Shown here one piece after another: positions 135-34,871 of a stretch of DNA of 37,013 nt. Source of the DNA: a virus; IMG/VR virus record IMGVR_UViG_3300049893_000417, positions 1-37,013 of that record. One strand, 5' to 3'. The position numbers and the translations under genes were made by a program. The first letter of the stretch is position 1. Each line of letters starts with the position of its first letter. The notes below the pieces were generated by a model, which was given only the letters and a program-made list of their open reading frames with translations, searched no databases and was not told the DNA's origin.

Positions 135-417
135 GTTTAAGAAAATTAACAATTAGCCCGTAAGTCTTTCCGTCATCGCCAATGAATAGCCTCAAATAAC
201 CTATATCTGAAAGCTCACGTAGCATTACGGTAGTACTACCGGAAAGCTCCCGTAGTGGGAAAACATCAGCCTCAACAAGCTTAGGGTTTGCATTAAAATA
301 CCCATAATCATCACAATGATTCAATAAACCAATAGCCAAAAGGCATGTTTCGGCCGGCAATTTTGCCAATGCTTCATTGCGCCAAAATTCAGGCTTTATT
401 GTTCTAATTCTAGCCAT
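1..417 (-). CDS. Replication initiator (lambda O-like), N-terminal part, continues across the circle junction
   Basis: Start ATG at 417 with GGGGAG upstream, overlapping the stop of the small ORF before it. The 139 codons begin MARIRTIKPEFW, the usual opening of phage winged-helix replication initiators. They run through a conserved LKHQV segment (about residues 95-100) into a Gly-Ser repeat and stay open to base 1. The frame continues at 36867 and ends at 36490, giving about 264 residues with the shorter repeat. By family, it should bind origin iterons and recruit the helicase loader encoded just downstream (35739-36497). The iterons lie inside this gene, as in lambda O. Function is inferred from sequence resemblance, not from a search. 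Confidence 0.85.
   Translation of the reverse strand, partial: MARIRTIKPEFWRNEALAKLPAETCLLAIGLLNHCDDYGYFNANPKLVEADVFPLRELSGSTTVMLRELSDIGYLRLFIGDDGKTYGLIVNFLKHQVINKKTSSKIKDLCKLPYDYRSPTVALPTGSGSGSGSGSGMEY
14..43. repeat. Hexanucleotide tandem repeat encoding a Gly-Ser linker (left copy)
   Basis: Four CTTCCA units plus a final CTTCCG. On the coding (minus) strand each unit reads GGAAGT, that is Gly-Ser. The repeat forms a flexible linker between the winged-helix half of the initiator and its C-terminal half. The same tract at the right end has two more units, so the tract is either variable in the population or collapsed in assembly. Confidence 0.85.
43..256. other. Putative replication origin inside the initiator gene
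   Basis: Four 11-bp units start at 43, 54, 65 and 76. The last three share TACGGTAG (CTACGGTAG at 54 and 65, GTACGGTAG at 76), and the first is a degenerate GGTAGGTAG. Each full unit is a CTAC-n-GTAG dyad, and the spacing is one helical turn. A very AT-rich stretch follows at about 100-160. A second cluster at 218-256 contains the palindrome TACGGTAGTACTACCG (226-241) and two CGTAG copies. Iterons plus an AT-rich segment within the initiator gene match the lambda ori layout. Origin function is inference. Confidence 0.6.
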
Positions 418-607
418 TATCCAACTCCCCTAAACAGTTTTTTAGGGTTAAATATAATTTTTCTGATTGTTTTCTGGATAAAACAACTATTTGTTTATTA
501 AAATCACAATAATTATCTTGTTCGATAGTTAAGCCATCGTTTTTATTTTTGTAAAAAAATGTTTCATATTCATTTTTAATAGGAAAGTATAAAAAATTAT
601 TTTTCAT
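410..607 (-). CDS. Small hypothetical early protein (65 aa)
   Basis: Start ATG at 607, preceded by AAAGGG at a good distance. An upstream TTG at 691 would lengthen it to 93 residues but lacks a ribosome-binding site. The protein begins MKNNFLYFPIKNEYETFFY and is rich in Asn, Lys, Tyr and Phe, with no motif I recognise. Its stop TAG overlaps the initiator ATG at 417, so the two are probably translationally coupled. Composition is more AT-rich than the replication genes around it. It could be a small regulator of replication, but nothing in the sequence shows this. Confidence 0.55.
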   Translation of the reverse strand: MKNNFLYFPIKNEYETFFYKNKNDGLTIEQDNYCDFNKQIVVLSRKQSEKLYLTLKNCLGELDNG

Positions 608-1022: not shown

Positions 1023-1048
1023 AAAAATACAAACTTGAATGCTCATGA
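983..1048 (-). ncRNA. Putative small RNA (about 65 nt) with its own promoter and terminator
   Basis: A promoter at 1055-1084 should start transcription near 1048, and the terminator ends at 983. Only about 65 nt lie between them, with no ORF that fits and a strong 3' hairpin plus U-tail, the standard architecture of an sRNA. The ORF crossing this unit (from 1056) would read through the terminator and has no ribosome-binding site. The RNA could regulate the early genes or act as an attenuated leader. Expression is not shown by sequence alone. Confidence 0.5.
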
Positions 1049-1056
1049 ATGCTCAT
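1037..1056. repeat. Tandem decamer over the sRNA promoter start site
   Basis: GAATGCTCAT occurs twice back to back (1037-1046, 1047-1056). It covers the predicted transcription start and the edge of the -10 box. Its position is that of an operator, so a regulator binding here would block the promoter. Confidence 0.5.
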
Positions 1057-1084
1057 GATACCAGTGTTTTTACTCGAAAGTCAA
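1055..1084 (-). promoter_or_regulatory. Sigma70-like promoter of the short non-coding transcript
   Basis: On the minus strand the -35 is TTGACT (1084-1079) and the -10 is TATCAT (1060-1055), with an 18-bp spacer. No gene follows before the terminator at 983-1022. The -35 matches the two early promoters of this phage (TTGACT). Confidence 0.6.
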
Positions 1085-1172
1085 GCATTTAAAACAATTA
1101 CCTTTTGACTTCCGGAAAACTCAACAAGCCAAGCCAGACAAACTTCTCATCAAAACCTTGCTATTCAAGAAT

Positions 1173-1493
1173 TCACGCAGCCCTCCACAATCTCCCGCCT
1201 GACGCTCCCCTACCTCGTCTTCGGATTAAATCCGCGCGAATGCACACAATTTCATTGTGCCGAGATAACCAAGAAAAGACGCTTCCCCAAGCGCGGTCAT
1301 CATGGGGCTGGAAGCCTTCTTTCCTGGCTTCAAGCACAATAGTTTCATTGGGCGTTGGGCCGTGTTGCTTTAAATAGTTGAGGACAAACCTTTGCGCTCC
1401 ATAAACATCAAAACCTTTCTTTTCGGCCTTAGTGGTGACGTTTATCATCCCCATCTTTCCTAAAGAACGAAGTATTTCGTCTGAACAGTCCAT
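1173..1493 (-). CDS. Hypothetical winged-helix-like early protein (106 aa)
   Basis: ATG at 1493 has an excellent AGAAGGAG site. Residues 30-80 (QRFVLNYLKQHGPTP..TIVLEARKEGF..DDRAWGSVF) read like a winged-helix domain: a helix, a two-helix unit, then WLSRHNEI as the wing. The tail is basic (LIRRRGRGASGG). It is the last gene of the leftward regulator operon before the sRNA unit and terminator. It is probably DNA-binding, perhaps controlling early transcription or replication. No family name can be given with confidence. Confidence 0.6.
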   Translation of the reverse strand: MDCSDEILRSLGKMGMINVTTKAEKKGFDVYGAQRFVLNYLKQHGPTPNETIVLEARKEGFQPHDDRAWGSVFSWLSRHNEIVCIRADLIRRRGRGASGGRLWRAA

Positions 1494-2950: not shown

Positions 2951-3175
2951 ATGAATCCATTAGACGACGTAGAAAGCTGCAATGAACAGAACGCCTACAT
3001 TGCCGCCATTGCTCACCTACAAGAAGAAAACGAAAGAGTAAAAGAAGAAAACAAAAGAGTAAAACAAGAAAATGCGCATCTTCACAAGTATTTGATGAGA
3101 GCAGGTGCTCAATTTGATGATATGCATCAATTGCTTATTGACACAAGAAAACTCTTGTACAGAGGGCAATCATGA
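2951..3175 (+). CDS. Coiled-coil small protein (74 aa)
   Basis: ATG at 2951 has AAAGGGG upstream. Residues about 20-45 form a heptad coiled coil with a nearly repeated EENERVKEENKRVKQEN segment. The rest is helical and ends in RKLLYRGQS. The stop overlaps the next start (ATGA at 3172-3175), so translation is coupled to the membrane protein that follows. It resembles small scaffold- or adaptor-like phage proteins only in having a coiled coil. Function unknown. Confidence 0.65.
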   Translation: MNPLDDVESCNEQNAYIAAIAHLQEENERVKEENKRVKQENAHLHKYLMRAGAQFDDMHQLLIDTRKLLYRGQS

Positions 3176-3333
3176 AAAATTCTGACCGAATCGTAGGCAT
3201 AGCCCTTGTTCTTTCTGCTGGATTTATAGCCGGTTTGCTATCAGGCGAGAAAAAGACAGAGCGTGAATATGTGTCCTTCTCGAATTGTAGTAGGCCCCAC
3301 CTGGTGGCGTTAACTCAAAACTACGGTGAATGA
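3172..3333 (+). CDS. Single-span membrane protein (53 aa)
   Basis: Starts at ATG 3172 inside the previous stop, with GAGGG upstream. After a short polar head (MKNSDR) comes one hydrophobic helix (IVGIALVLSAGFIAGLL, residues 7-23), then a charged domain with one Cys. It looks like an inner-membrane anchor with a cytoplasmic or periplasmic tail. It is part of a run of tiny genes, several of them hydrophobic. Possible roles include superinfection exclusion, but no homology is recognised. Confidence 0.6.
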   Translation: MKNSDRIVGIALVLSAGFIAGLLSGEKKTEREYVSFSNCSRPHLVALTQNYGE

Positions 3334-3334
3334 C

Positions 3335-3523
3335 ATGAGTCCTCTACGCTATAGACATATTTTCAGAACATTAAGCAAGCACCACAGACGGCAATGGTGG
3401 TGTCAAAGAAAGTACCTGGGAGAGCCTCTTCAATCCTGCGCGAAAAGCAAGCTAAGCAGCGCATTGAGTAACGGATTGGCCGAGGCAATGATGAAAACAC
3501 AAAGAGAAATGCGTTATGGATAG
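3335..3523 (+). CDS. Basic small protein (62 aa)
   Basis: ATG at 3335 starts one base after the previous stop. A GTG at 3326 is in frame and would add three residues. The protein is strongly basic with an aromatic core (RTLSKHHRRQWWCQRKYLGE), then a helical C-terminus. High Arg, Lys and Trp suggest nucleic-acid or membrane binding. The stop overlaps the next micro-ORF. No family recognised. Confidence 0.5.
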   Translation: MSPLRYRHIFRTLSKHHRRQWWCQRKYLGEPLQSCAKSKLSSALSNGLAEAMMKTQREMRYG

Positions 3524-3599
3524 TGAGTTTTTGGTGATGATTTTAGCCATTATTTTTGCAATGTTTATTGTGATGATTATATCCATGATGATTATGTAA
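3516..3599 (+). CDS. Hydrophobic microprotein (27 aa)
   Basis: ATG at 3516 overlaps the end of the preceding gene and the ORF ends in TAA at 3597. Apart from MDSE the whole peptide is a single hydrophobic helix rich in Ile, Met and Phe. It would insert into the inner membrane. Size and composition resemble membrane microproteins that modulate a partner. The assignment rests on its fit into the packed operon. Confidence 0.4.
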   Translation: MDSEFLVMILAIIFAMFIVMIISMMIM

Positions 3600-3612
3600 A
3601 AAGGTGAATGTG

Positions 3613-3717
3613 ATGAACAAAGAAGACGACGGTATTGAAGACTTAGGTAGAGTGCTATGGATGGTGTGTATTGCTTTACTCTTATCTTTAGCTTTTATGT
3701 ATGTGGTAGGAAGATAA
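3613..3717 (+). CDS. Membrane microprotein (34 aa)
   Basis: ATG at 3613 follows AAAGGTG. The peptide has an acidic head (MNKEDDGIEDLGRV) and one membrane helix (LWMVCIALLLSLAFMYVV), ending GR. It lies one base before the next start at 3719, the tight spacing expected of real genes here. With 3172 and 3516 it makes three short membrane proteins in 550 bp. Confidence 0.5.
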   Translation: MNKEDDGIEDLGRVLWMVCIALLLSLAFMYVVGR

Positions 3718-3718
3718 C

Positions 3719-3901
3719 ATGGACGGGCAATATCACAACGAAGAATTAAAAAGACAACAAATAGAGGAAGCCCTCGAAAGAATAATAGAAGGTAAAGCAG
3801 AAAACAGCGATATTGCGTTAATTTACTTTGAATGCGGATTACCGGCTCCAGTTAAGACCGGCATTAAAAAGGAGAAAGAAAATGGGTTTTATAGCGGCTA
3901 A
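3719..3901 (+). CDS. Hypothetical helical protein (60 aa)
   Basis: ATG at 3719, and the end overlaps the SSB-like gene by 20 bases. The sequence (NEELKRQQIEEALERIIEGKAENSDIALIYFECGL) is an amphipathic helical pair. Its last 20 codons carry the ribosome-binding site (AAGGAG) of the next gene. No recognised domain. It could be an early accessory factor. Confidence 0.6.
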   Translation: MDGQYHNEELKRQQIEEALERIIEGKAENSDIALIYFECGLPAPVKTGIKKEKENGFYSG

Positions 3902-4502
3902 TTCCGGCGGTGGTGATTTTAAGCGTGTCCCTGTGGGCGTTTATATTGGGCGTTGCTATTCTCTTATTGACCTTGGGACACAAAAGACCGAGGGGCAATA
4001 CGGGGTTAAATTCCAGCACAAAATACGCATCAGCTGGGAATTGTTCGGGGAGGATGAGCAAGGCAATCCTTTGACAATCAATGTTGATGGCGTAGAAATG
4101 CCGATGACTATTAGCAAGTCTTACACCGTAAGCCTGCACGAAAAGGCGGGGTTAAGAAAAGATTTGGCCTCATGGCGCGGAAAAGATTTTACAGAAGAGG
4201 AGGCGGCGGGCTTTGATGTCTCAAGGCTAATAGGGGCTTACTGCATGCTTAATATCACCTCTTCGGAATCCAACGGAAAAACTTACAGCAACATTTCAAG
4301 CATTACGCCATTACCTGCGGCACTCAAGAATAACAAGCCGTCGCCCGTGCATTCAAACGTCATTTTTAACTTAGACGACCCAGACTTCGAGGTATTCGGA
4401 AGATTTTATGAAAAATTACAGGCTACTATAAAAAATAGTCCAGAATGGGCCGAATTACAAAGAAATCACGGACAACACAATACAGAGGATATTCCTTTCT
4501 AA
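3882..4502 (+). CDS. ssb: Phage single-stranded DNA-binding-like protein
   Basis: ATG at 3882 with AAGGAG; an in-frame upstream ATG (3828) lies inside the previous gene and is not preferred. The 206-residue protein starts with a beta-rich domain (FKRVPVGVYIGRCYSLIDLG, then KIRISWELF and TISKSYTVSLHEKAGLRKDL), compatible with an OB fold. It ends in EDIPF, the acidic tip used by bacterial SSBs to recruit partners. Its place beside gp157 and ninB fits a role in coating ssDNA during replication and recombination. It is not a close relative of E. coli SSB. Confidence 0.75.
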   Translation: MGFIAANSGGGDFKRVPVGVYIGRCYSLIDLGTQKTEGQYGVKFQHKIRISWELFGEDEQGNPLTINVDGVEMPMTISKSYTVSLHEKAGLRKDLASWRGKDFTEEEAAGFDVSRLIGAYCMLNITSSESNGKTYSNISSITPLPAALKNNKPSPVHSNVIFNLDDPDFEVFGRFYEKLQATIKNSPEWAELQRNHGQHNTEDIPF

Positions 4503-4504
4503 TC

Positions 4505-5002
4505 ATGGCTAATTTATACGAGCTAAGCGAAGAATTACGCCAAGAATTAGATAGCGCGTTTGACCCAGAAACCGGCGAAATGTTGCCGGTTTTTGAGGAC
4601 AAAAGGGCTTTATGGGGAAGTAAAGCCCGAGACCTTGCTGCCTATATTCTCAACGTTGAATCAGACGCTGACCAAGCTAAAGCCGCGATTGAGCGCATAC
4701 GTCACAACATGCTAGAGCCTGCCCAGAAGAAAGCGGCCGCGCTTAAAGATTACCTGGCTAGAAATATGGCGACATGCGGCATGACAGAAATCAAAGCGAA
4801 TGACGGCAGTTTTGTCGTGAAACTGTACCCAAACCGTGATGAGGCGGTGGAATTAGACGAAGGCGCGACATTCCCTCCTGAGCTATGTAACGACCCTAAG
4901 CCTCCATTACCTAGCAAGTCGAAAATCAAGGCCGCCATTTTGTCAGGGCAAGACGTACAAGGGGCGAAGATTGTACTGCGCGATAGATTGGTTATAAAGT
5001 GA
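4505..5002 (+). CDS. Siphovirus Gp157-like protein
   Basis: ATG at 4505, three bases after the SSB-like stop. The 165-residue protein has the Gp157-family layout. The N-terminus is LYELSEELRQEL with an acidic DPETGE segment. A long central helix follows (residues about 40-105, DLAAYILNVESDADQAKAAIERIR...KKAAALKDYL). A C-terminal beta part carries the family-typical FVVKLYPNR and PSKSKIKAAI. The family commonly sits next to SSB and recombination genes, and its precise function is not settled. Confidence 0.8.
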   Translation: MANLYELSEELRQELDSAFDPETGEMLPVFEDKRALWGSKARDLAAYILNVESDADQAKAAIERIRHNMLEPAQKKAAALKDYLARNMATCGMTEIKANDGSFVVKLYPNRDEAVELDEGATFPPELCNDPKPPLPSKSKIKAAILSGQDVQGAKIVLRDRLVIK

Positions 5003-5370
5003 CCTACAGGCTCGTTACATCCGACGACCGCGCCCGCGCCATAGAAGCCATAAAAGCTGCGCCGGTTGGCTGGGTAGCACGTATTAGCCCGCCTACTCGT
5101 AATCTTAAGCAGAATGCTTTGCTTCATGCTGAATTACAAGAAATTGCCAGAACTCGAACATGGTGCGGGTTTGAGTTAGATGTTGAAGACTGGAAGCGTT
5201 TAATGGTGGCCGCTTGGATGAGGGCCAAAGGAGAAAGCCCTGTGTTTATACCTGCTATAGACGGGCATGGAATGGATGTTATTTATAAACGGACAAGTAA
5301 GCTCACAAAGGAAGAAATGAGCGATTTAATCGAATATGTCATTGCTTGGAAACATTTAAAGGAGACATGA
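4999..5370 (+). CDS. ninB: NinB-like recombination protein
   Basis: GTG start at 4999 overlaps the Gp157 stop. The 123-residue protein matches the NinB pattern: N-terminal AIEAIKAAPVGWVARI, then the signature RNLKQNALLHAELQEIA, W-GFELDVEDWKRLMVAAW, and a C-terminal helix (TKEEMSDLIEYVIAW). NinB (Orf) of lambda is an ssDNA-binding recombination mediator that can replace RecFOR. Clustering with the SSB-like gene supports that role. It is slightly shorter than the lambda protein. Confidence 0.85.
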   Translation: MTYRLVTSDDRARAIEAIKAAPVGWVARISPPTRNLKQNALLHAELQEIARTRTWCGFELDVEDWKRLMVAAWMRAKGESPVFIPAIDGHGMDVIYKRTSKLTKEEMSDLIEYVIAWKHLKET

Positions 5371-5555
5371 TGCAGCCATCATTAGTAGTGCCCTTTCGGG
5401 CGGCTGAGAAAGGAGAAACGAAAAGTGCTGAACATAGGCAGATGTGGGTTTGCTATTGCGGATGCTTCAGCTTCCGCATGTTCGATAGCGGGGATATTCA
5501 ATGCGCGAAATGTGGTGTATGGCTTACTGAGGCGCAAATTCATTGGAACCGCTAA
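5370..5555 (+). CDS. Zinc-ribbon small protein (61 aa)
   Basis: ATG at 5370 is five bases after AAGGAG and overlaps the ninB stop. The ATG at 5367 is too close to the site. The protein has CYCGC...IQCAKCGVWL, two Cys pairs about 19 residues apart, as in a zinc ribbon. Short zinc ribbons next to ninB are frequent in phages. It probably binds nucleic acid or a protein partner; substrate unknown. Confidence 0.65.
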   Translation: MQPSLVVPFRAAEKGETKSAEHRQMWVCYCGCFSFRMFDSGDIQCAKCGVWLTEAQIHWNR

Positions 5556-5632
5556 CGGTGGAAATAATGGCGCGGCGGAGCCGTCGCCCATTGATTGACC
5601 TGTTATATGACTTTTACATGACGGAGAGAAAT

Positions 5633-5890
5633 ATGAGTATTTACCTAGGCAACTTAAGCATCGAAGAAATTGAGCGCCGTTCAGGTGTTGAATTTCCGAA
5701 GGAATTGAAAGATTACATGTCTGACAAGAAGCAAGAATCGGCATCAAATATCGCAGAAGGGAAGTGGCACTGTTTTGATATTCCATTCGTGCTTGCCTGT
5801 GGCGGGAGAAGTATGGCTGAACACATTTATAAATATCTAGGGCCTATGTCGAAAGATTTTAAAGAACCGCTGCAAATTGCGCTTGGGTAG
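5633..5890 (+). CDS. Conserved-looking phage protein (85 aa)
   Basis: ATG at 5633 with GGAG. An in-frame ATG at 5564 (MARRSRR..) with GGTGGA would give 108 residues and cannot be excluded. The sequence (MSIYLGNLSIEEIERRSG, then EGKWHCFDIPFVLACGG) looks like a widespread phage early protein of unknown function. It is the last rightward early gene. Its stop lies two bases before the attC core of the inverted cassette, so the cassette is joined tail-to-tail to this operon. Confidence 0.65.
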   Translation: MSIYLGNLSIEEIERRSGVEFPKELKDYMSDKKQESASNIAEGKWHCFDIPFVLACGGRSMAEHIYKYLGPMSKDFKEPLQIALG

Positions 5891-5892
5891 GT

Positions 5893-5950
5893 ATATAACG
5901 TTTGAATTCACCGGCTGCTGTAAGCAGTCCGGTGGAATGATTGGTTAGCA
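5893..5950 (-). other. Integron attC recombination site
   Basis: On the minus strand it reads TGCTAAC (R'', 5950-5944), CAATCATTC, then the hairpin CACCGG-A-CTGCT-TAC-AGCAG-CCGGTG, then AATTCAAAC and GTTATAT (R', 5899-5893). Order, arms and spacing line up closely with the aadA-type attC, including the ATTC and AATTCAA arms. R' departs from strict GTTRRRY at one position. It follows the cassette stop codon by only a few bases, as in real gene cassettes. Confidence 0.85.
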
Positions 5951-6377
5951 ATGTTAGCTTAACCATATAAATGCAAGCCACAACATTAAGGACAAAGACA
6001 ATGAAAAATAGAATGCCAACTCGGATTTTTTATAAAGCCAATGTAATGCGTAGGCGTCTGGCACGCTGGCTGCGGATTCATTGTTTCCCAGTAATGTATA
6101 TTTTTCTCTATCACAAACAAGATAAAGAGCCCCTTGAGCCAGCTTTGATTCGCCGTGTACAGCGACTGCACCGAATAGGATACCAATTACATTCATTGAT
6201 AGAGCAGCCTTTAGAGCAAGTAATTGATGGCCAAGAAATGGTTTCCCAAAGGCGACGCCTGCCGTCAGTGAAAATGCTCCAACAGCTATAAGCATAAGCC
6301 AGCGCAAATATGAGTAATTTGCGTCATTTCTTAATTGAGAATATTTGCTTAAATTTGATTGCGTCATAAATTGCTAA
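5899..6377 (-). mobile_element. Integron gene cassette carrying a membrane-protein gene
   Basis: On the minus strand the cassette runs from TTAGCA (just inside the core GTTAGCA at 6378-6372) through one ORF to the G of the attC R' box (5899). The ORF starts five bases after the core and ends just before R'', the compact plan of gene cassettes. No integron integrase or attI is in the window. The cassette must have arrived by recombination at a secondary site or from an already cassette-bearing ancestor. Confidence 0.8.
5954..6367 (-). CDS. Cassette-encoded membrane protein (137 aa)
   Basis: ATG at 6367, five bases after the cassette core, with no clear ribosome-binding site, as is common in cassettes. 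Three membrane segments are visible: residues about 23-43 (WLMLIAVGAFSLTAGVAF), 54-72 (KAALSMNVIGILFGAVAV) and 118-136 (YFSLSLSLMLWLAFIWL). A polar stretch of some 45 residues lies between the second and third. Cassette arrays often encode small membrane proteins of unknown function, some of them anti-phage. In a phage it could act in superinfection exclusion. No family identified. Confidence 0.75.
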   Translation of the reverse strand: MTQSNLSKYSQLRNDANYSYLRWLMLIAVGAFSLTAGVAFGKPFLGHQLLALKAALSMNVIGILFGAVAVHGESKLAQGALYLVCDREKYTLLGNNESAASVPDAYALHWLYKKSELAFYFSLSLSLMLWLAFIWLS

Positions 6378-6425
6378 CGTGCAGTAGGCACCGATAACGG
6401 TGCCTATTCCTGCTGGGTAATGGCC
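6372..6425 (-). other. attC-like site with degenerate R'' box
   Basis: On the minus strand the core GTTAGCA (6378-6372) is preceded by a strong hairpin: GCAG-GAA-TAGGCACCG-TTAT-CGGTGCCTA-CTGC (6413-6381). The asymmetric GAA is like the extrahelical bases of attC sites. A proper R'' box (expected GCTAAC-like) is not recognisable near 6415-6425. The site is therefore a partial or hybrid attC, sitting at the broken end of hicB. Confidence 0.6.
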
Positions 6426-6428
6426 TTC

Positions 6429-6650
6429 TCACAACTGTCCTCTTAGAGGCTTTTGTGGTTCTCTTCCGAGAGTTGCACAGGTATCGATGTAATCATCCAC
6501 CGCAGCCTCGAATTCCGTCTGCAATTCAGCAGGAGACATGGCCTCATAGGTAATCAAGTCGTCGATGAATAGTATCTTCCCACGGCAAACTCGCCGAGCC
6601 ATATCGAGCTCAGCGGTACCTTCGTAGTCTTTGTACTTGAGAATGCCCAT
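6429..6650 (-). pseudogene. hicB: HicB-family antitoxin, truncated
   Basis: ATG at 6650 with GAGGA upstream. The 73-residue product has a clear HicB N-terminal domain: LKYKDYEGTAELD, RGKILFIDDLITYEA, LQTEFEAAVDDYIDTC, and GREPQKPLRGQ, where family members continue into an RHH or HTH DNA-binding tail. Here it stops right after RGQL. The next bases in another frame (V-R..., then TTACCCAGCAGG) resemble the expected continuation, suggesting a frameshift or deletion joined to the attC hairpin. No hicA toxin is seen upstream. It may still act as a partial antitoxin; autoregulation is probably lost. Confidence 0.7.
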
Positions 6651-6675
6651 GCTGTCCTCATCCAAACCACAAACG

Positions 6676-6704
6676 GCGATCTTAGCCCACGTCTAAACCG
6701 CCTT
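6676..6704. other. Hairpin between hicB and the next gene
   Basis: On the minus strand GGCG and TTTAG pair with CTAAG and CGCC around a seven-base loop (about 6704-6676). It could be a cassette boundary remnant, because it contains GTTTAGAC, or a weak terminator. No strict GTTRRRY core is present, so the upstream end of the hicB unit is undefined. Confidence 0.3.
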
Positions 6705-7076
6705 CTAACTCTTCTCATTGTGGCCAATTGCGGCGTACATGTCCAGACCGATGCGCCGCCAATCCTCGGCTAGAGCCGTCCTGCTATCCGTTGGTTGCAC
6801 GCATAGAGGTTCTATTGTCGGTAATGGCGGTAGGGATTCAAGGCGATAAATGGCCAGAGGTGCGGCCATGCCCTTAAGCATTCCTCGCCAAAAAGCGTCT
6901 CTAGCACTGTGTTTGAAATCAAGCAACATGTCCGTAAGTGTACCTAAAGGGGGGTTGTTTATAGCAACCAAAATGTTCGTGCGTGTAAGTAATCCGCCAG
7001 CTTGTACACCTTGCCTTGTGGCTTGGCCGCCGTCACTTCTTTCACGCTCAATACCATGAGTTCCGCCTGATGCCAT
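6705..7076 (-). CDS. Hypothetical phage/mobile-element protein (about 123 aa)
   Basis: The frame is open from 7115. ATG at 7076 is the best start I can offer, but no ribosome-binding site is visible and the true start may be further in. The C-terminal 70 residues look like a real folded unit, ending in LAEDWRRIGLDMYAAIGHNEKS. A helix precedes (ARDAFWRGMLKGMAAPLAIY) and then a Pro-rich LPPLPTIEPL. The N-terminal part (MASGGTHGIERERSDGG) is low-complexity. It lies beside a tRNA-like attachment sequence. Function unknown. Confidence 0.5.
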   Translation of the reverse strand: MASGGTHGIERERSDGGQATRQGVQAGGLLTRTNILVAINNPPLGTLTDMLLDFKHSARDAFWRGMLKGMAAPLAIYRLESLPPLPTIEPLCVQPTDSRTALAEDWRRIGLDMYAAIGHNEKS

Positions 7077-7089
7077 TTTTAGTACCATG

Positions 7090-7288
7090 ATTCTAGCGCG
7101 CATACAGACGAACACAGATAAGTACAGACGAAGCAGTTTTTAGTGTTTACACCAGGAGAAAGCATGAAAAGCGTATGAATGCGAATACATGCGAAAACAG
7201 CCGAACAAGATAGTGGTGCCGGTGAAAGGATTCACAACCCCATAAAAATCAAGTACTTAGCCAAACCGATACCATAAAACGATACCCT
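7090..7288. other. Non-coding attachment-like region
   Basis: About 200 bp without a gene. It holds direct repeats of TACAGACGAA (about 7104 and 7121), several GCGAATAC/GCGAAAAC/GCCGAAC variants at 7171-7205, the tRNA-end-like core at 7214-7233, and CGATACC twice (7267-7286). Such clustered short repeats around a tRNA-derived core are typical of phage attP arm sites. No integrase gene is present. Confidence 0.4.
7214..7233 (-). other. tRNA 3'-end-like core (possible attP or attachment scar)
   Basis: On the minus strand GAATCCTTTCACCGGCACCA reads as the end of a T loop, a T-stem strand (CCTTT), an acceptor strand (CACCGGC), a discriminator A and CCA. The 5' portions of a tRNA are absent, so it is not a tRNA gene. 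Tyrosine-recombinase phages often carry such tRNA 3' ends as attP cores. The acceptor would pair with GCCGGTG, compatible with a tRNA-Leu. Confidence 0.5.
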
Positions 7289-7732
7289 TTAGCCTTTCAA
7301 AAGTTGAGCCTCTGCTGCCCTTCGGAGCACTAAGCCAGGCAGTTTTTTTCCACCGCCCCAGACCCACTTAGACAGCTCTTGAGCCGCGCCCTCCCAGTCT
7401 TGGGCGTTGACTTTCCGCCGCAGTGTACTGGCCTTGTAGCGTGTCGTCCCTAGGTTGTAGCAAAAATCGGTTATGGCAGACAGTCGGCCTTCGTGGGTGG
7501 CCAAGACGGGGGAAAGGATAAGGGTTTGGCGCATGAATTGGGCGGCCTCAAACGCCAACATCTCCATGGCCGTTGTGGTGGAAATAGGGCTGTCACTTAA
7601 GGTCACCCCCCTACCGTCAGGGTAGCGGGTGCATCCATAGCCGATGGTCGGAATACCTGCTGGGCAGAGGTAGGGCTTAAGCCGTAAGCCTTCAAAGCGT
7701 TGAATCAGCCTGAATAACTCTTGAGGCATCAT
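7289..7732 (-). CDS. Endolysin, T4-type lysozyme (GH24)
   Basis: ATG at 7732 (or 7729) overlaps the stop of the upstream holin-like gene. The 147-residue protein has Glu14 in RFEGLRLKPY, Cys23 where T4 lysozyme has Asp, and Thr29 in GIPTIGYG. The spacing is E-8-C-5-T, the known E-D/C-T triad variant. The C-terminal part (FCYNLG..., STLRRKVN, WEGAAQELSKWVWGGGK, LPGLVLRRAAE) is the usual family core. It cleaves the glycan strands of peptidoglycan at the end of infection. No signal peptide, so it depends on a holin. Confidence 0.9.
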   Translation of the reverse strand: MMPQELFRLIQRFEGLRLKPYLCPAGIPTIGYGCTRYPDGRGVTLSDSPISTTTAMEMLAFEAAQFMRQTLILSPVLATHEGRLSAITDFCYNLGTTRYKASTLRRKVNAQDWEGAAQELSKWVWGGGKKLPGLVLRRAAEAQLLKG

Positions 7733-8211
7733 CGGCCAAACAGTTTGCGTAAGCTCCTGTCCACCAGCCAAAAGGAGGCAATGGAGGCGGCCAAGGCTTT
7801 TTCCTCTGTGCCGAAGGTCCCTTTCAAAGCGTCGAGTGGGTTGACACCGCTTTGTACGGCCAGAATAAACCCCGCAACGACCACGGCAGGCCAAAGCACA
7901 ATCAGCCACTGGAACGCGAGAATAGGGCGCACCAAAGCATTCAAAGCGTCCACCCATTGAATGCCGGTAGCCGTGGCTTGGGCTTGGGTGGCTTCGATAA
8001 TGGCTTGAATTTCAGAAGAGCCTATCGAGGCTTCGGCTTGGGCGTTGATTTGCGCAAGGGCTTGGTTGCCTTTGAGTTTGTCCGCTTCCAGTTGTTTGTC
8101 GAACATGGCCAACTCATGCGCCCGCTCGTTTTTCCGGTCAAGCCATTTCAAGGCTTCGGGGATAAGGCGGAAAACACCGCCGAAAAGGGTGCCCATCAGG
8201 GTTTCAATCAT
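7729..8211 (-). CDS. Holin-like membrane protein of the 3TM type (160 aa)
   Basis: ATG at 8211 with GGAGGCAAC. The N-terminus (MIETLMGTLFGGVFRLIPEALKWLDRKNERAHELAM) and a long helix with Gln- and Ala-rich heptads precede the membrane segments. The segments are PILAFQWLIVLWPAVVVAGFILAV (about 107-130) and a weaker C-terminal helix. The layout resembles 3TM holin families found beside lysozymes in gene transfer agents and phages. It overlaps the lysozyme start, supporting a lysis role. Holin activity is inferred. Confidence 0.65.
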   Translation of the reverse strand: MIETLMGTLFGGVFRLIPEALKWLDRKNERAHELAMFDKQLEADKLKGNQALAQINAQAEASIGSSEIQAIIEATQAQATATGIQWVDALNALVRPILAFQWLIVLWPAVVVAGFILAVQSGVNPLDALKGTFGTEEKALAASIASFWLVDRSLRKLFGR

Positions 8212-8404
8212 GTTGCCTCCTTGCGAAAAACAGCCGTAGCACACTCAGCCACACCAGCCGCATGACGAACAACATGCCGCCCATTTTGAGGGCTTGCGCA
8301 TGGGTCACGCTTCCACCGGCTAATCCGCTGGTGAAGGGCAGGGTAACAATGCCCGCCGCCCATATCCCAAGACTGCCGATGAGAGGCTCGATGAGTTTTC
8401 TCAA
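8204..8404 (-). CDS. Small membrane protein of the lysis cluster (66 aa)
   Basis: A TTG start at 8404 lies eight bases after GGAG and overlaps the upstream stop (TTGA). The ATG at 8443 has no site and would overlap far more. Two membrane helices are visible: IGSLGIWAAGIVTLPFTSGLAGG and GGMLFVMRLVWLSVLRLFF, with a basic end (ARRQHD). Size and topology suit a small holin or antiholin. Confidence 0.55.
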   Translation of the reverse strand: MRKLIEPLIGSLGIWAAGIVTLPFTSGLAGGSVTHAQALKMGGMLFVMRLVWLSVLRLFFARRQHD

Positions 8405-8832
8405 AAGCGGTACTCCGTCGATAGCGTCCACGTTTCCGTGCATCGAAAACAGTTCTTTTTAATGTAGGACAGCTTGGTGGTGGTGCGCCCCGCCTGAACG
8501 CCGAGTGAGGGCACTAAAAAGCCATGCACACCTTCGCGTGATTCGTTCTTGTAGAGGCCCGCCGACACAGAAGCCACAAAAGGCCCGCTCACCGCCCAGC
8601 CTTTGGAATAGCCCGCGTAGTAGGTCAGGGTGTCGTAAGCGTTGCGATACGCGCCCAGCATCGGCCCGTGGTCACGTCCCCACGCCAGCCCTAGCCCAGG
8701 AGTGACGTTGTGAAGCTGGTCATTCTTTCCAGGGTAGTAGGCGGCCAGGTGAACAATCATCCGCGTTGGGAATACGTCTTGGGCGTGGGCACTGCCCAGC
8801 AGGACTAGGCCTAACACGAACGCGCGCATCAT
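8401..8832 (-). CDS. Exported, probably outer-membrane beta-barrel protein (143 aa)
   Basis: ATG at 8832 (or the next codon). The signal peptide is clear (RAFVLGLVLLGSAHAQ, cleavage probably after AHA). The mature part alternates polar and aromatic residues (LTYYAGYSKGWAVSGPFVASVSAGLY) and ends STEYRF with a terminal Phe. Both are hallmarks of outer-membrane barrels inserted by BamA. Two Cys near the end (KNCFRCTE) may form a disulfide. Phage-encoded barrel proteins are known to alter host surface properties. Here it sits within the lysis operon. Family unknown. Confidence 0.6.
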   Translation of the reverse strand: MMRAFVLGLVLLGSAHAQDVFPTRMIVHLAAYYPGKNDQLHNVTPGLGLAWGRDHGPMLGAYRNAYDTLTYYAGYSKGWAVSGPFVASVSAGLYKNESREGVHGFLVPSLGVQAGRTTTKLSYIKKNCFRCTETWTLSTEYRF

Positions 8833-9224
8833 GCGGCCTCCTTAGTGGGGCGAACCACGCGGGGCTTAAACTCCACCGTTGCCACGTCGTCCATGTTGTT
8901 CTGGTTGTAAATGCGCTGCGCGAGGCCCGTCTTCCAAAACAAGCCGAAGACCGTTTGCACGAAGGCCCCCGCCCCCACCAAAAAGATGTACACCCAGATG
9001 AGGATGGACGACTCGGCCCCTGAATGCGGATGGAATAAGCCGTCAAACTTGGCCCATAAGTACAAGGGCGTCATGAGGCTCACAAAGCTGCCTATGCCTA
9101 GAATGCGCAACGCCGTCAACGCAAGAATGTTGGTGTGCTTGTTGGTGGTGACTAGGCGGGTGTAGGTGGTGTAAAACAGCCATGCCGAAAACACCGTATG
9201 AAAGAAGCATTGCCAGGCGGTCAT
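8829..9224 (-). CDS. Multi-pass membrane protein of the lysis cluster (131 aa)
   Basis: ATG at 9224 with GGAGGCAAG. Membrane helices are visible at about residues 3-22 (AWQCFFHTVFSAWLFYTTY), 31-55 (ILALTALRILGIGSFVSLMTPLYLW) and 73-95 (ILIWVYIFLVGAGAFVQTVFGLF). A soluble tail ends RPTKEAA. It overlaps its neighbours on both sides by four bases. It could be a holin partner or another inner-membrane factor. Confidence 0.55.
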   Translation of the reverse strand: MTAWQCFFHTVFSAWLFYTTYTRLVTTNKHTNILALTALRILGIGSFVSLMTPLYLWAKFDGLFHPHSGAESSILIWVYIFLVGAGAFVQTVFGLFWKTGLAQRIYNQNNMDDVATVEFKPRVVRPTKEAA

Positions 9225-9517
9225 GTCTTGCCTCCAAAGCGTTGGGCCAGCGCGTTTTTTAAAGCGGCGAGTAGGTGGATATGATGCTCGGACGTGGCCG
9301 CGATGATGAAAGAGGCCGTGCCAATGTCCCAGGGGTAGAGGAGGCCGAGGTACTTGTGCATTAAATGCCCCCCGAAAACGGACAGCCCGCCCACGGCGCA
9401 CGTAATGCGCGCCAACAATTTAAGCGCGTTTTTGTGGGTTTGGGTATCCGCCCCTGCCAGGCACCATAGGGCACCGCCAAACGCTGACCCCACAATAACC
9501 AAGTAATCTTCACTCAC
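9221..9517 (-). CDS. Small membrane protein, possible holin (98 aa)
   Basis: ATG at 9517, eight bases inside the end of the upstream NlpC/P60-like gene. Hydrophobic stretches lie at residues about 5-20 (YLVIVGSAFGGALWCLAG), 37-60 (ITCAVGGLSVFGGHLMHKYLGLLY) and 66-75 (TASFIIAAT), with a His-rich loop (EHHIHLL). The topology is holin-like, but several other candidates lie next to it. Confidence 0.5.
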   Translation of the reverse strand: MSEDYLVIVGSAFGGALWCLAGADTQTHKNALKLLARITCAVGGLSVFGGHLMHKYLGLLYPWDIGTASFIIAATSEHHIHLLAALKNALAQRFGGKT

Positions 9518-9998
9518 CGCCCCCGCCCTTGTGTTGTAACGCTGATTGAATGGCTTTCATTTGGTAATGGAAGGAGGCGGGGCGCAGACGATGCGGGTCG
9601 TGAATGTCAAACACCAAGGCCATGACGTGCCCGACGAATTCATTGCAAAATTCCTTGCGCTTGTCCTGTCGAATGCCGATCAACCCCGCGCCTAATAAGC
9701 CCAGGTAGTCGTACTTGACCCCGCGAGACACTTTTTCAGTGCATAAGTCCATCATGTCGCGGTACTGTTCTTTTGTGACTTCAAACGGGATTAAGTCCCA
9801 GTTTCCGGAATGAATGTCAATGGCCTTAAAACGCGCCCCGCCGTCCATGATGGAACTGGAGGCGCACAACCATAAGCCGCCAGGCTGCGGGAGTAAGGCT
9901 ATTTCAGTGTGGGAGTAGGGCGTGTTGTCGAGCCAGCGCAGAACGGCGTTGAACAGCTTGCCCTTGCCTGTGTAGGTGGCAATGTAAACCGTGGTCAT
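9510..9998 (-). CDS. NlpC/P60-superfamily (permuted YiiX-like) cysteine peptidase
   Basis: ATG at 9998. The N-terminus MTTVYIATYTGKGKLFNAVLRW leads to TPYSHTEIALL with His30. The nucleophile Cys118 lies in KEFCNEFVGH. His before Cys is the circularly permuted order of the YiiX/LRAT-like NlpC/P60 group. Similar proteins near phage tail-fibre genes are often mis-annotated as enoyl-CoA hydratase. It may cut a peptide or acyl bond in the envelope during lysis or entry. It is not obviously secreted. Confidence 0.7.
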   Translation of the reverse strand: MTTVYIATYTGKGKLFNAVLRWLDNTPYSHTEIALLPQPGGLWLCASSSIMDGGARFKAIDIHSGNWDLIPFEVTKEQYRDMMDLCTEKVSRGVKYDYLGLLGAGLIGIRQDKRKEFCNEFVGHVMALVFDIHDPHRLRPASFHYQMKAIQSALQHKGGGGE

Positions 9999-10570
9999 GG
10001 CGTGTAGATCTCCGGCCAGCCTTGAGAATAGTCGTAGCTTTCGGGGTCTTCTGCGGCTTCCATGGCCGTTTTATGGGCGTTGGCGGCATTAAAATGCGCG
10101 GCATCTTGCGCCGCTGCCGCTGCGAAAATCTGCCCCGCCAGCGTGGGGGTCATAGTGACGAAGCCGTTGTCGTAGGTCTTCCACTGCAAGCCCTCTGGAA
10201 TGTTGGCCCCCATCAGCAGCAAGCCAATTTGCTGAGTGCGGCTGAAGGTGTCGCTTTGATACCAATGGTCACCCACCTGATAGCCGCCCAGCTGCACGCG
10301 CTTGTCCCTTTCGGCTTTGATGGCGTCCCATACTTGCGCTTGGCGTTGTGGGAGGGGCGTTTCCGGTACGGGCACAATGCCCGCCTCGACTTCGGCAATG
10401 AGCGTTTCATACGGCCCGATGTCACCGCCGTACTGCGCAACGTCGTCACGCAACATTGACATCTGAACATCCGCGTACGCTTGGCATCGAATCAGCCCGC
10501 CGTCTTCACCTGTCCATGTGGCTTCAATCGCGTTAGCGTTGGTGTACTTGATCAGCTTAAGGGAAGTCAC
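9995..10570 (-). CDS. Tail-fibre-associated protein with DUF4376
   Basis: GTG start at 10570 with GGAG, overlapping the fibre gene stop (GTGA). The 191-residue protein carries an N-terminal region (LKLIKYTNANAIEATW). A DUF4376-type domain starts at about 90 (VWDAIKAERDKRVQLGGYQVGDHWYQSD, then TQQIGLLLMG and GFVTMTPTLAGQIF). DUF4376 proteins sit next to tail fibres and may assist their assembly or decorate them. The genomic position fits. Confidence 0.75.
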   Translation of the reverse strand: MTSLKLIKYTNANAIEATWTGEDGGLIRCQAYADVQMSMLRDDVAQYGGDIGPYETLIAEVEAGIVPVPETPLPQRQAQVWDAIKAERDKRVQLGGYQVGDHWYQSDTFSRTQQIGLLLMGANIPEGLQWKTYDNGFVTMTPTLAGQIFAAAAAQDAAHFNAANAHKTAMEAAEDPESYDYSQGWPEIYTP

Positions 10571-11538
10571 GAAGTGGCTCCTTTGATGACGGCAAAGTTG
10601 ATGACGATGGCCTCGGAAAGAGATCCTCCTGATGGGTTTGTGACATTGACAGTGCAAAAGCCGGTGCTTACTGTTCTTGTGCCAATGATGTATCGCGTAG
10701 AGCCCCCGTTGGTTTGATTAAAAACAATACAGTCAGAAGCGGATATAAACGAGTTTGAAAAAGTGAATTCGACTATTGCACCCGCTGCCAAAGCTGCGTT
10801 ATGCATCGTGATCTGCCCCGTCAGCTTGTTCAGCGTGACGGCTGTACTTTTGCTGGTGGCCTGAGTCACCGTGCCGCCTGTGCCTGTGCTGTAGCCTACT
10901 GTGCCAACCGATGCGGTACCAAACGCCCCCCATTGCGTCCCAGACGCCGCAAAGAACGTCATGCCATTGCCGCGTTCTATGGAAATAGGGGCCGTATGAG
11001 TATCTAAACTGGCCCCAGCCCCTATCGCTACCGTACCGGCTGCGCCTGTCGCATAGGCGGTAAAGGCCGCGCCTTCAGGCAAGCCTAAAGAGGCGGGTGT
11101 GGGCAAGGTCAGGGTAAAGGCCCCACTGAACCACACCGTTTTACCAATATCATTGACGGTCAGGTTACGGCTTGCAGCAACGGTAGAAAGCCCGCTAAAG
11201 CTGCCAAGTGCGCGCTTCACAAAGGCTGTATTCGCAATAGAAGTGTCATTGTCAAACTGCGCCGCCGTAGGTGCCTTTGGGTCACCTGTAAGCGTTGGGT
11301 CATTTAATATATAAGAGGCCAACACACTTGCGATCACACTCTTGTCTGAAGTCCCCTGCCTAGTTAAAAATAAGTCCCCACCCGTTACACTGGCGGCTGA
11401 ACTTAAATCCGAAAGTGTGACTTTTGTCGCGCCTAATTTAGAGGTAATTGTGGATTCGTTGCCAGCTAATGATAAAATCGCCGCTTGCTGGTCAAGCAAC
11501 TGACGGACAAGTGCTTCTTCAGTTGATGTAAGTGCCAT
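10567..11538 (-). CDS. Tail fibre protein (323 aa)
   Basis: The fibre-typical segment GDPKAPTAAQFDNDTSIANT, followed by AFVKRAL, lies at about residues 84-111. The protein then becomes a Gly/Thr/Ser/Ala-rich beta region and a C-terminal beta domain (ITMHNAALAAGAIVEFTFSN and NAVI-like ending). The N-terminus is a short helix (STEEALVRQLLDQQAAIL), probably the attachment part. It should bind the host surface as the distal fibre. Base composition is visibly GC-richer than the baseplate genes upstream, suggesting module exchange. Confidence 0.8.
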   Translation of the reverse strand: MALTSTEEALVRQLLDQQAAILSLAGNESTITSKLGATKVTLSDLSSAASVTGGDLFLTRQGTSDKSVIASVLASYILNDPTLTGDPKAPTAAQFDNDTSIANTAFVKRALGSFSGLSTVAASRNLTVNDIGKTVWFSGAFTLTLPTPASLGLPEGAAFTAYATGAAGTVAIGAGASLDTHTAPISIERGNGMTFFAASGTQWGAFGTASVGTVGYSTGTGGTVTQATSKSTAVTLNKLTGQITMHNAALAAGAIVEFTFSNSFISASDCIVFNQTNGGSTRYIIGTRTVSTGFCTVNVTNPSGGSLSEAIVINFAVIKGATS

Positions 11539-32920: not shown

Positions 32921-33353
32921 CTTTTAAGGCAAGCAACTCAGCGAGTGCCGCAGACGATAGTTTTGAAAAATCCATGCCTTGCGAACGCAGACTGCCGTCA
33001 CTATTACTCAGGTCTAGCTTCTGTGGGGCGTTGTAACCGTGCATCACATTAAGCTCTTTAATGGCCCCTGTCATGCCTGAACTGTTTTCCCTTTGCTCGG
33101 CAATCTTGTACGCTTTTGCAAGTGCCTTAACGCTCATTTCGCGCGTCCAAAGTGATTTTGCGCTTATCTGCTCCTTGAGCTCAGCGACCCTTTGCGAAAT
33201 GTTAGTATCTGCCATCAATTTAGAAGCGTTTACATTGATGCTCTCATTCTTTGTATCAGGGCTTACATTATAGGCTGTCCGGTAAGCGTCGGATTGTGTC
33301 ATGCCCTTAGCTACGCATTGAGCGAAGTTTTCTTGTTTTGGTGTTAGGCTCAT
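32901..33353 (-). CDS. terS: Terminase small subunit
   Basis: ATG at 33353 overlaps the methyltransferase stop (ATGA); the upstream frame to 33473 lies inside that gene. The 150 residues start MSLTPKQENFAQCVAKGMTQSDAYRTAYN, the Terminase_2 helix-turn-helix. A helical middle (ASKLMADTNISQRVAELKEQI) and a C-terminal oligomer region follow. It recognises the packaging site. Confidence 0.9.
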   Translation of the reverse strand: MSLTPKQENFAQCVAKGMTQSDAYRTAYNVSPDTKNESINVNASKLMADTNISQRVAELKEQISAKSLWTREMSVKALAKAYKIAEQRENSSGMTGAIKELNVMHGYNAPQKLDLSNSDGSLRSQGMDFSKLSSAALAELLALKDASERE

Positions 33354-34846
33354 ATTGCAGCCTCGACAAAAGTTTTGCCAGTTTCTTCGTGTATTGCTTG
33401 AAGTCCTGTGTAGTCTTGCCAGCGTTTGATGATTACATCGACGTATTGGGGCTGAAGCTCCATTGTATAGCAAGTACGCTGTGTTTTGTGTGCGCCCATT
33501 AGAGTGCTGCCACTTCCGCCGAATGGTTCAAAGCATAGCCCGTGCCGTGGAAGGCTTGACATCATTACTCGCTCCATCATTGCAACAGGCTTTGGTGTTG
33601 CGTGTCCGTGTCTTTCTTCTCCTGTTACCCGTGGGAATTCCCAAACGTCAGTCATGTTATCGTGGGTGTTGTCGAAGTATGCGCGGGTTTTATAAAAATC
33701 TTTTTTTAATTCTTCGTAATCTTTTTTGAAGGCTTCGCCTTTTGCGAATAATTGCAGCTTTTTATAAGCCTCCTCCGTTGGAAGCGTCCATTGCGACTTT
33801 GTGAAATAGTGTTTCCCCATATGGTTGCCTAATGCTTCTTTCCAATTCTTGGAGCCACCGCACTTTTCCATTTCTTCGGCTAGGTACTTTCGTATTGGCT
33901 CAAAGCCATCCCAATAATTGTCCGCGTTGTTGTTGAATCCTTGCTCGCCAAGCATAAAGAAAATACAGTGCTCTGTTACTGTTGGAAAAGAACGCTTATT
34001 TTCTGCCCCGACTCCTTGCACGCTTTTTTTATCCCAAACAAGCTGATTGCGAAGCGTCAATCTTTCGCTATCTTTTAGCCCGCCTTTGTACCATAACCGC
34101 CATAAATCCTTAGAATTCCCCCAAATGTACGCGCTTGCATTGTCTAACGTATAAGGTCTTATTGCTTTCCACCAAGCCATCTGGAAGCCGTCAAGCTTGT
34201 CGTCGTAAAGGTTGTCATTAGCCACACCATCGCTTTCTTTACCCATCCCGTAAGGTGGGTCTGCGTGGATTAACTGGGCTTTTTTGCCGTGCATTAACTT
34301 TTTAATATGCTCTGGGTTTGTTGAATCGCCACACATCACCCTATGTTCACCAAGAATCCACACATCGCCTAGCTGGGTGCTGTGCTTCTCTTGTGCCTCT
34401 GGGACTTCATCATCAGCCGTCAAGCCTTCTGTTGGCTCATCCAAAGAATCGGCCTCTTCCCTTACTTCTTTCACTTCATCTTCTGTGAAGCCTGTCAGGT
34501 CAATATCAAAGTCAAGTTCTTTCAGCTCATCCAGTTCGAGCGCGAGAAGCTCCATGTCCCAATCGGCAAGCTCTGCCATTTTGTTAACGCTTATTCTGAA
34601 TGCTTTTATTTGTGCGTCCGTGAGGTCATCAGCGAGAATAACGGGGGCCTCGCTTAGGCCTATTTTTTTTGCGGCCTTTAATCGAAGGTGCCCGTCCACA
34701 ACAAGCCCGTCAGACTTGGCCACAATAGGCACACGAAAACCGAATTCTTTAATCGCAGCGGCAATGCTATCAACAGCATGGTCATTTTTACGCGGATTTC
34801 TTGCGTATTCTATAAACTTATCAATAGGCCATGTTTCAAAAATCAT
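33350..34846 (-). CDS. ParB-domain / DNA adenine methyltransferase fusion
   Basis: ATG at 34846 with GGAAT at a suitable distance; the TTG at 34858 is less likely. The 498 residues start with a ParB/Srx-like domain (NPRKNDHAVDSIAAAIKEFGF, then VVDGHLRLKAA at 49-59) and an acidic linker. The methyltransferase follows, with DPPY at 196-199 and the SAM motif FEPFGGSGST near the C-terminus. The order IV-TRD-I is the beta class. It probably methylates phage DNA for anti-restriction. It is the first gene of the late operon. Confidence 0.9.
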   Translation of the reverse strand: MIFETWPIDKFIEYARNPRKNDHAVDSIAAAIKEFGFRVPIVAKSDGLVVDGHLRLKAAKKIGLSEAPVILADDLTDAQIKAFRISVNKMAELADWDMELLALELDELKELDFDIDLTGFTEDEVKEVREEADSLDEPTEGLTADDEVPEAQEKHSTQLGDVWILGEHRVMCGDSTNPEHIKKLMHGKKAQLIHADPPYGMGKESDGVANDNLYDDKLDGFQMAWWKAIRPYTLDNASAYIWGNSKDLWRLWYKGGLKDSERLTLRNQLVWDKKSVQGVGAENKRSFPTVTEHCIFFMLGEQGFNNNADNYWDGFEPIRKYLAEEMEKCGGSKNWKEALGNHMGKHYFTKSQWTLPTEEAYKKLQLFAKGEAFKKDYEELKKDFYKTRAYFDNTHDNMTDVWEFPRVTGEERHGHATPKPVAMMERVMMSSLPRHGLCFEPFGGSGSTLMGAHKTQRTCYTMELQPQYVDVIIKRWQDYTGLQAIHEETGKTFVEAAI

Positions 34847-34871
34847 TCTATATTCCAAAATTCAATAAGAC

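Follow-up and report, generated by a model that had tools for sequence, protein, structure and literature searches.

Integron cassettes usually carry a single gene that has no promoter, is flanked by short non-coding ends and is read in the direction of the attC site, and the start of a circularised cassette (G|TTRRRY) must complement its own R''. Away from integrons, cassettes are reportedly inserted at secondary sites (attG) of bacterial genomes and plasmids, in work said to be that of Loot et al. from 2024. Off-target insertion by IntI1 at GTT secondary sites, together with inversion, is documented (PMC10127599), and a further report is related to insertion at attG sites (PMC12901181). For phages, a survey of 10,705 genomes, virulent phages included, revealed complete integrons and 17 CALINs, five of six tested attC sites from virulent phages recombined with attI1, and homologous or illegitimate recombination was proposed as the route by which the CALINs had entered (Qi et al., 2023; PMC9892861). 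A preliminary description of the locus presented here had regarded a cassette in a tailed phage as an unusual finding; the 17 CALINs of this survey show that it has precedents.

The window, by which we mean the whole stretch of 37,013 bases that was analysed, is a metagenomic tailed-phage contig from IMG/VR (IMGVR_UViG_3300049893_000417). Genes for head morphogenesis and tail fibres are encoded on the minus strand, as are those for terminase, portal, major capsid, tape measure, baseplate wedge and endolysin, which make up the late side of the cassettes; the plus-strand genes for NinB and Gp157 stand on the early side. A block of higher GC (6500-11500; 0.50-0.60 versus about 0.43), which covers the lysis and tail-fibre genes and starts just past the cassettes, suggests mosaicism, and at 33350-34858 (minus strand) a ParB-like domain is fused to a DNA methyltransferase. 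An Rfam search of the window returned zero matches. The features of the locus are the following.

5385..5555, plus strand: last rightward gene before the cassettes, a small zinc-ribbon-like protein (sequence and translation)
5550..5608, minus strand: attC2, with R'' ATATAAC (5608-5602), a hairpin and R' GTTAGCG (5556-5550); closed-circle fold of -29.3 kcal/mol
5556..5898, minus strand: cassette 2, 343 bp, TTATATACC... to ...TTCCACCG
5633..5890, plus strand: 85-aa gene of cassette 2, in reverse orientation to attC2
5893..5952, minus strand: attC1, with R'' ATTGCTAAC (5952-5944), L' GAATTC and R' GTTATAT (5899-5893)
5899..6377, minus strand: cassette 1, 479 bp, TTAGCAA... to ...CAAACG (boundary search and closed-circle fold)
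5954..6367, minus strand: P0001, the ORF of cassette 1, 137 aa, a predicted all-helical hydrophobic membrane protein
6385..6406, no strand assigned: perfect 9-bp hairpin just outside cassette 1, TAGGCACCG ATAA CGGTGCCTA
6429..6665, minus strand: HicB-antitoxin-like gene on the late-side flank (phrog_9151, E 7e-24)

To score attC sites we used a covariance model trained on 12 attC sites of class 1 integron resistance cassettes from plasmids, motif-rule mining of chromosomal integron loci for training sites having proved noisy. The two top matches in the window were attC1 (minus, 5949-5893; 41.8 bits, E 1.3e-8) and attC2 (minus, 5605-5553), the latter with a modest score (22.8 bits, E 9.5e-4), and all remaining matches in the window were at or below 10.7 bits. 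At E<=10 these two sites were the sole matches in 1.15 Mb comprising the window and 82 loci of related phages; the whole records of the relatives, which were searched later, contained further attC matches in two of them. Chromosomal integron attC sites scored by the identical model mostly fall at about 16-56 bits. Both sites in the window possess the R''/R' and L''/L' inverted repeats of integron-cassette attC sites, with extrahelical bases on the bottom strand (model and folds). In attC1 these are an extrahelical C in L'' and a second extrahelical A (G and T on the bottom strand), whose placement and spacing match the attC sites of aadA and catB8 when the folds are read by comparison.

The start of cassette 1, GTTAGCAAT (6378-6370), pairs with its own R'' at all nine bases, whereas only 4 bases pair between that R'' and the adjoining R' GTTATAT, and among 41 GTT sites within 3 kb upstream no other one pairs with it at more than 5. 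Likewise, the start of cassette 2, GTTATAT (5899), pairs 7/7 with its own R'', compared with only 4 bases for the present neighbour GTTAGCG and no more than 5 for any other of 40 GTT sites within 3 kb upstream; 7-base complements to this R'' are present at several GTT sites of the window, none of them in those 3 kb. As closed circles, both cassettes fold into full attC hairpins, with predicted circle junctions of CAAACG|TTAGCAA (cassette 1) and CCACCG|TTATATACC (cassette 2). Since each of the two attC sites has an R'' that matches the start of its own cassette, the locus contains two cassettes, which together form an array of 822 bp (6377-5556, minus strand); cassette 1 is limited by the G|TT crossover points 6378|6377 and 5899|5898. 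Each cassette has one ORF, in sense orientation in cassette 1 only, so that agreement with the usual cassette plan is partial for cassette 2.

It is highly improbable that an ordinary hairpin or terminator resembles attC here by chance. A generic scan for GTT/AAC complementarity with any hairpin does yield other matches in phage DNA, and was dropped as too permissive; the covariance E-values, the occurrence of two sites on one strand of one window, the aadA-like placement of extrahelical bases and the closed-circle complementarity largely refute such a coincidence. The preliminary description had reported a complete cassette with a core GTTAGCA (minus, 6378-6372), a canonical attC of aadA type (minus, 5950-5893) and a 137-aa ORF. 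All of these elements are present, the ORF at 6367-5954, and both the class 1-trained model and the extrahelical bases agree with what was said of the attC, although four bases rather than five separate the core from the ATG. The cassette is genuine, with limits that fit insertion by an integron integrase, but it is one of two, the second (5898-5556) having been missed.

The two attC sites are about 340 bp apart on the same strand, and no tyrosine recombinase (PF00589) was matched anywhere in the 37,013-base record, which may be a fragment; this supports the earlier claim that an integron integrase is lacking. With at least two nearby attC sites and no integron integrase, the array is a CALIN as scored by our own model rather than by IntegronFinder; it is not a complete integron, as there is neither a PF00589 match in the record nor, by inspection, an attI at the array start. 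Its outer junctions (CACG|TTAGCAA and CACCG|TTAGCGG) each fall at a G|TT core outside an integron, the mark of a secondary (attG) site. On the early side, the TAA stop codon of the zinc-ribbon-like gene (5553-5555) sits inside the core site (TAAC, which is GTTA on the minus strand), and on the late side the hairpin is a probable bidirectional terminator at a convergent gene junction. The HicB-like gene beyond it is without most of the C-terminal domain, its matches covering positions 2-74 of 119 in phrog_9151 and 1-19 of 51 in Pfam HicB.

Taking out the 822 bp puts the zinc-ribbon-like gene a few bases from the 9-bp hairpin. The insertion thus occupies the point at which the rightward and leftward genes run into each other, and no flanking gene is broken by it. 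The reconstructed target is TACTGCACGTTAGCGGTTCC, and the predicted empty-site junction is GCTAACGTGCAG, which reads ...GCACG|TTAGCGG.... The exact 17-mer of this empty site is absent from the viral contigs, and searches with the flanks found no relatives sharing the flanking genes or the exact empty site. Because no exact empty-site relative was found, we infer the IntI insertion event on phage DNA from the boundaries and not from a before/after pair.

The preliminary description had named, as an observation that would speak against it, the same segment being fixed in phage relatives without having anything to do with a cassette; instead, the segment is absent from 32 related records, save for weak matches to the cassette 2 gene, and at the junction that corresponds one relative holds another cassette. 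In this relative (L186; 28.9 kb contig, major capsid 83% identical), a cassette of 382 bp (minus, 1299-918) carries an attC of 36.3 bits, with a complementarity of 9 to its own start versus 4 to the present neighbour, and the last gene of the rightward set, which encodes an HNH endonuclease, again has its TAA stop within the core. The cassette gene (1023-1259, plus strand) is Tad2-like, of the anti-Thoeris family (PF11195, E 8.9e-24), a predicted anti-defence gene that is reversed relative to its attC. As L186 repeats the pattern of the window with another cassette, in its attC score, its complementarity and the stop codon in the core, we counted it in favour of IntI insertion. Its contig stops some 900 bases past the cassette, and near that end an ORF (290-604, plus strand) looks to the eye like a C-terminal portion of a TnpB protein of IS200/IS605 type. 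Three further relatives (L187, L189 and L192) have the late-end gene and the convergent junction in common with L186 and gave zero attC matches. A more distant one (L207, capsid 44%) has attC-like sites, three above 22 bits and two weaker in 9 kb, which are all on one strand (2999-8825), with the genes between them, including a DnaB-like helicase, mostly opposite. In the small sample formed by the window and its relatives, cassette genes seem often to be reversed. A match of 15.6 bits in another relative (L196) was not counted.

The two-cassette block could instead stem from a chromosomal integron of a host, part of which was captured by homologous or illegitimate recombination, without IntI acting on phage DNA. 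Capture has been proposed in print for phage CALINs, with mention of terminators at their edges that bear GTTRRRY (PMC9892861), and two adjoining cassettes in the same orientation do resemble an array fragment. We nevertheless consider it unlikely, as both outer ends coincide to the base with G|TT, neither attI nor intI nor a partial cassette follows outside them, the flanking gene retains its stop codon, and L186 has an equal arrangement with another cassette. The boundaries fit direct site-specific insertion better than either form of recombination, and the array is probably a two-cassette CALIN whose cassettes were inserted by a host IntI at a secondary GTT core.

P0001 of cassette 1 reads in sense relative to attC1 and has no obvious ribosome-binding site; its single-sequence structure model (three helices, pLDDT 66) was too weak for a fold search. 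No credible relatives of P0001 were found at the DNA or protein level among reference phages, plasmids, viral contigs and GTDB contigs, or in 50 integron-bearing and 369 gammaproteobacterial genomes. The first nine bases of its ORF (ATGACGCAA, minus strand, 6359-6367) recur 40 bases downstream, out of frame (6319-6327). A host search via the capsid protein found nothing; the closest relative of attC1 among the collected sites belongs to a Methylobacter MAG, which is at most a hint that the host is a methanotroph.

The cassette 2 gene, in turn, points the same way as the rightward operon, with a good ribosome-binding site of its own, and attC2 overlaps the upstream boundary of the ORF at 5543-5890. 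Relatives of this gene were found in two other viral contigs only (60% and 52% identical), neither of which has an attC by the covariance model, and it is absent from reference phages, plasmids and the 369 gammaproteobacterial genomes. Its relatives, found here only in other phage contigs, its direction and its ribosome-binding site favour an origin of cassette 2 in place, through attachment of an attC beside a resident phage gene, with cassette 1 alone coming from outside, and the Tad2-like gene of L186 is reversed as well. Against this, cassette 2 begins with seven bases that all pair with the R'' of attC2, as the starts of ready-made cassettes do with no extra step, and we saw no mechanism for an in-place origin, which we hold to be quite improbable.

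Under insertion by a host IntI, the phage DNA would have been present in a host with an active integron, whose IntI would recombine the folded bottom strand of a cassette attC with a double-stranded GTT core. The target core would be a secondary site of attG type rather than an attI; it overlaps the stop codon with which the last rightward gene ends and adjoins the terminator, where insertion would be cost-free, and the second cassette would enter at the identical crossover point. No integrase of its own would be necessary for the phage, and another integron-bearing host could re-excise the cassettes. The gene of cassette 1 runs in the direction of the leftward late genes and that of cassette 2 in the direction of the rightward early genes; since these directions match the two blocks, each could be expressed by read-through. 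It is possible, if rather doubtful, that this phage lineage repeatedly gains cassettes via host IntI where early and late genes converge, at cores overlapping the last early stop codon, with a cargo mostly of phage-type genes oriented for phage operons, the Tad2-like gene included, and that the integron is thereby a platform on which phages exchange accessory genes.

The cassettes in the window and its relatives suggest that phages are able to acquire and carry cassettes, as has been reported since 2023. The base-resolved evidence is consistent with site-specific cassette insertion into a phage, a question left open in the phage-CALIN report; it also ties cassettes of this sort to genes of phage type and to a gene with a predicted anti-defence role. 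If insertion by a host IntI is true, phages can ferry cassettes from one integron to another, and integrons can be of use to phages and bacteria alike.

Compared with known systems, attC1 is like the short class 1-type attC sites of aadA1 and catB8 in its length of about 60 bp, its L''/L' layout and its two extrahelical bases, and differs in the R box (GTTAGCAA/TTGCTAAC), the nearest chromosomal attC found being that of the Methylobacter MAG. Insertion at attG sites shares the G|TT core, the lack of attI and the precise cassette ends, whereas the target here is a phage genome. A further likeness is to the published phage CALINs (PMC9892861), which also combine attC sites and small genes with no integrase in a tailed-phage genome, and which show divergent attC directions in one phage and cargo of a counter-defence type (methyltransferases). 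In contrast to these, the outer junctions are here resolved to G|TT at a stop codon and a terminator, one cassette carries a phage-only gene in reversed orientation, and a related phage has, at its counterpart of this junction, another cassette, which carries a Tad2-like gene. The array in the window thus joins an already published kind, the phage CALINs described in 2023, with unusually clear boundaries.
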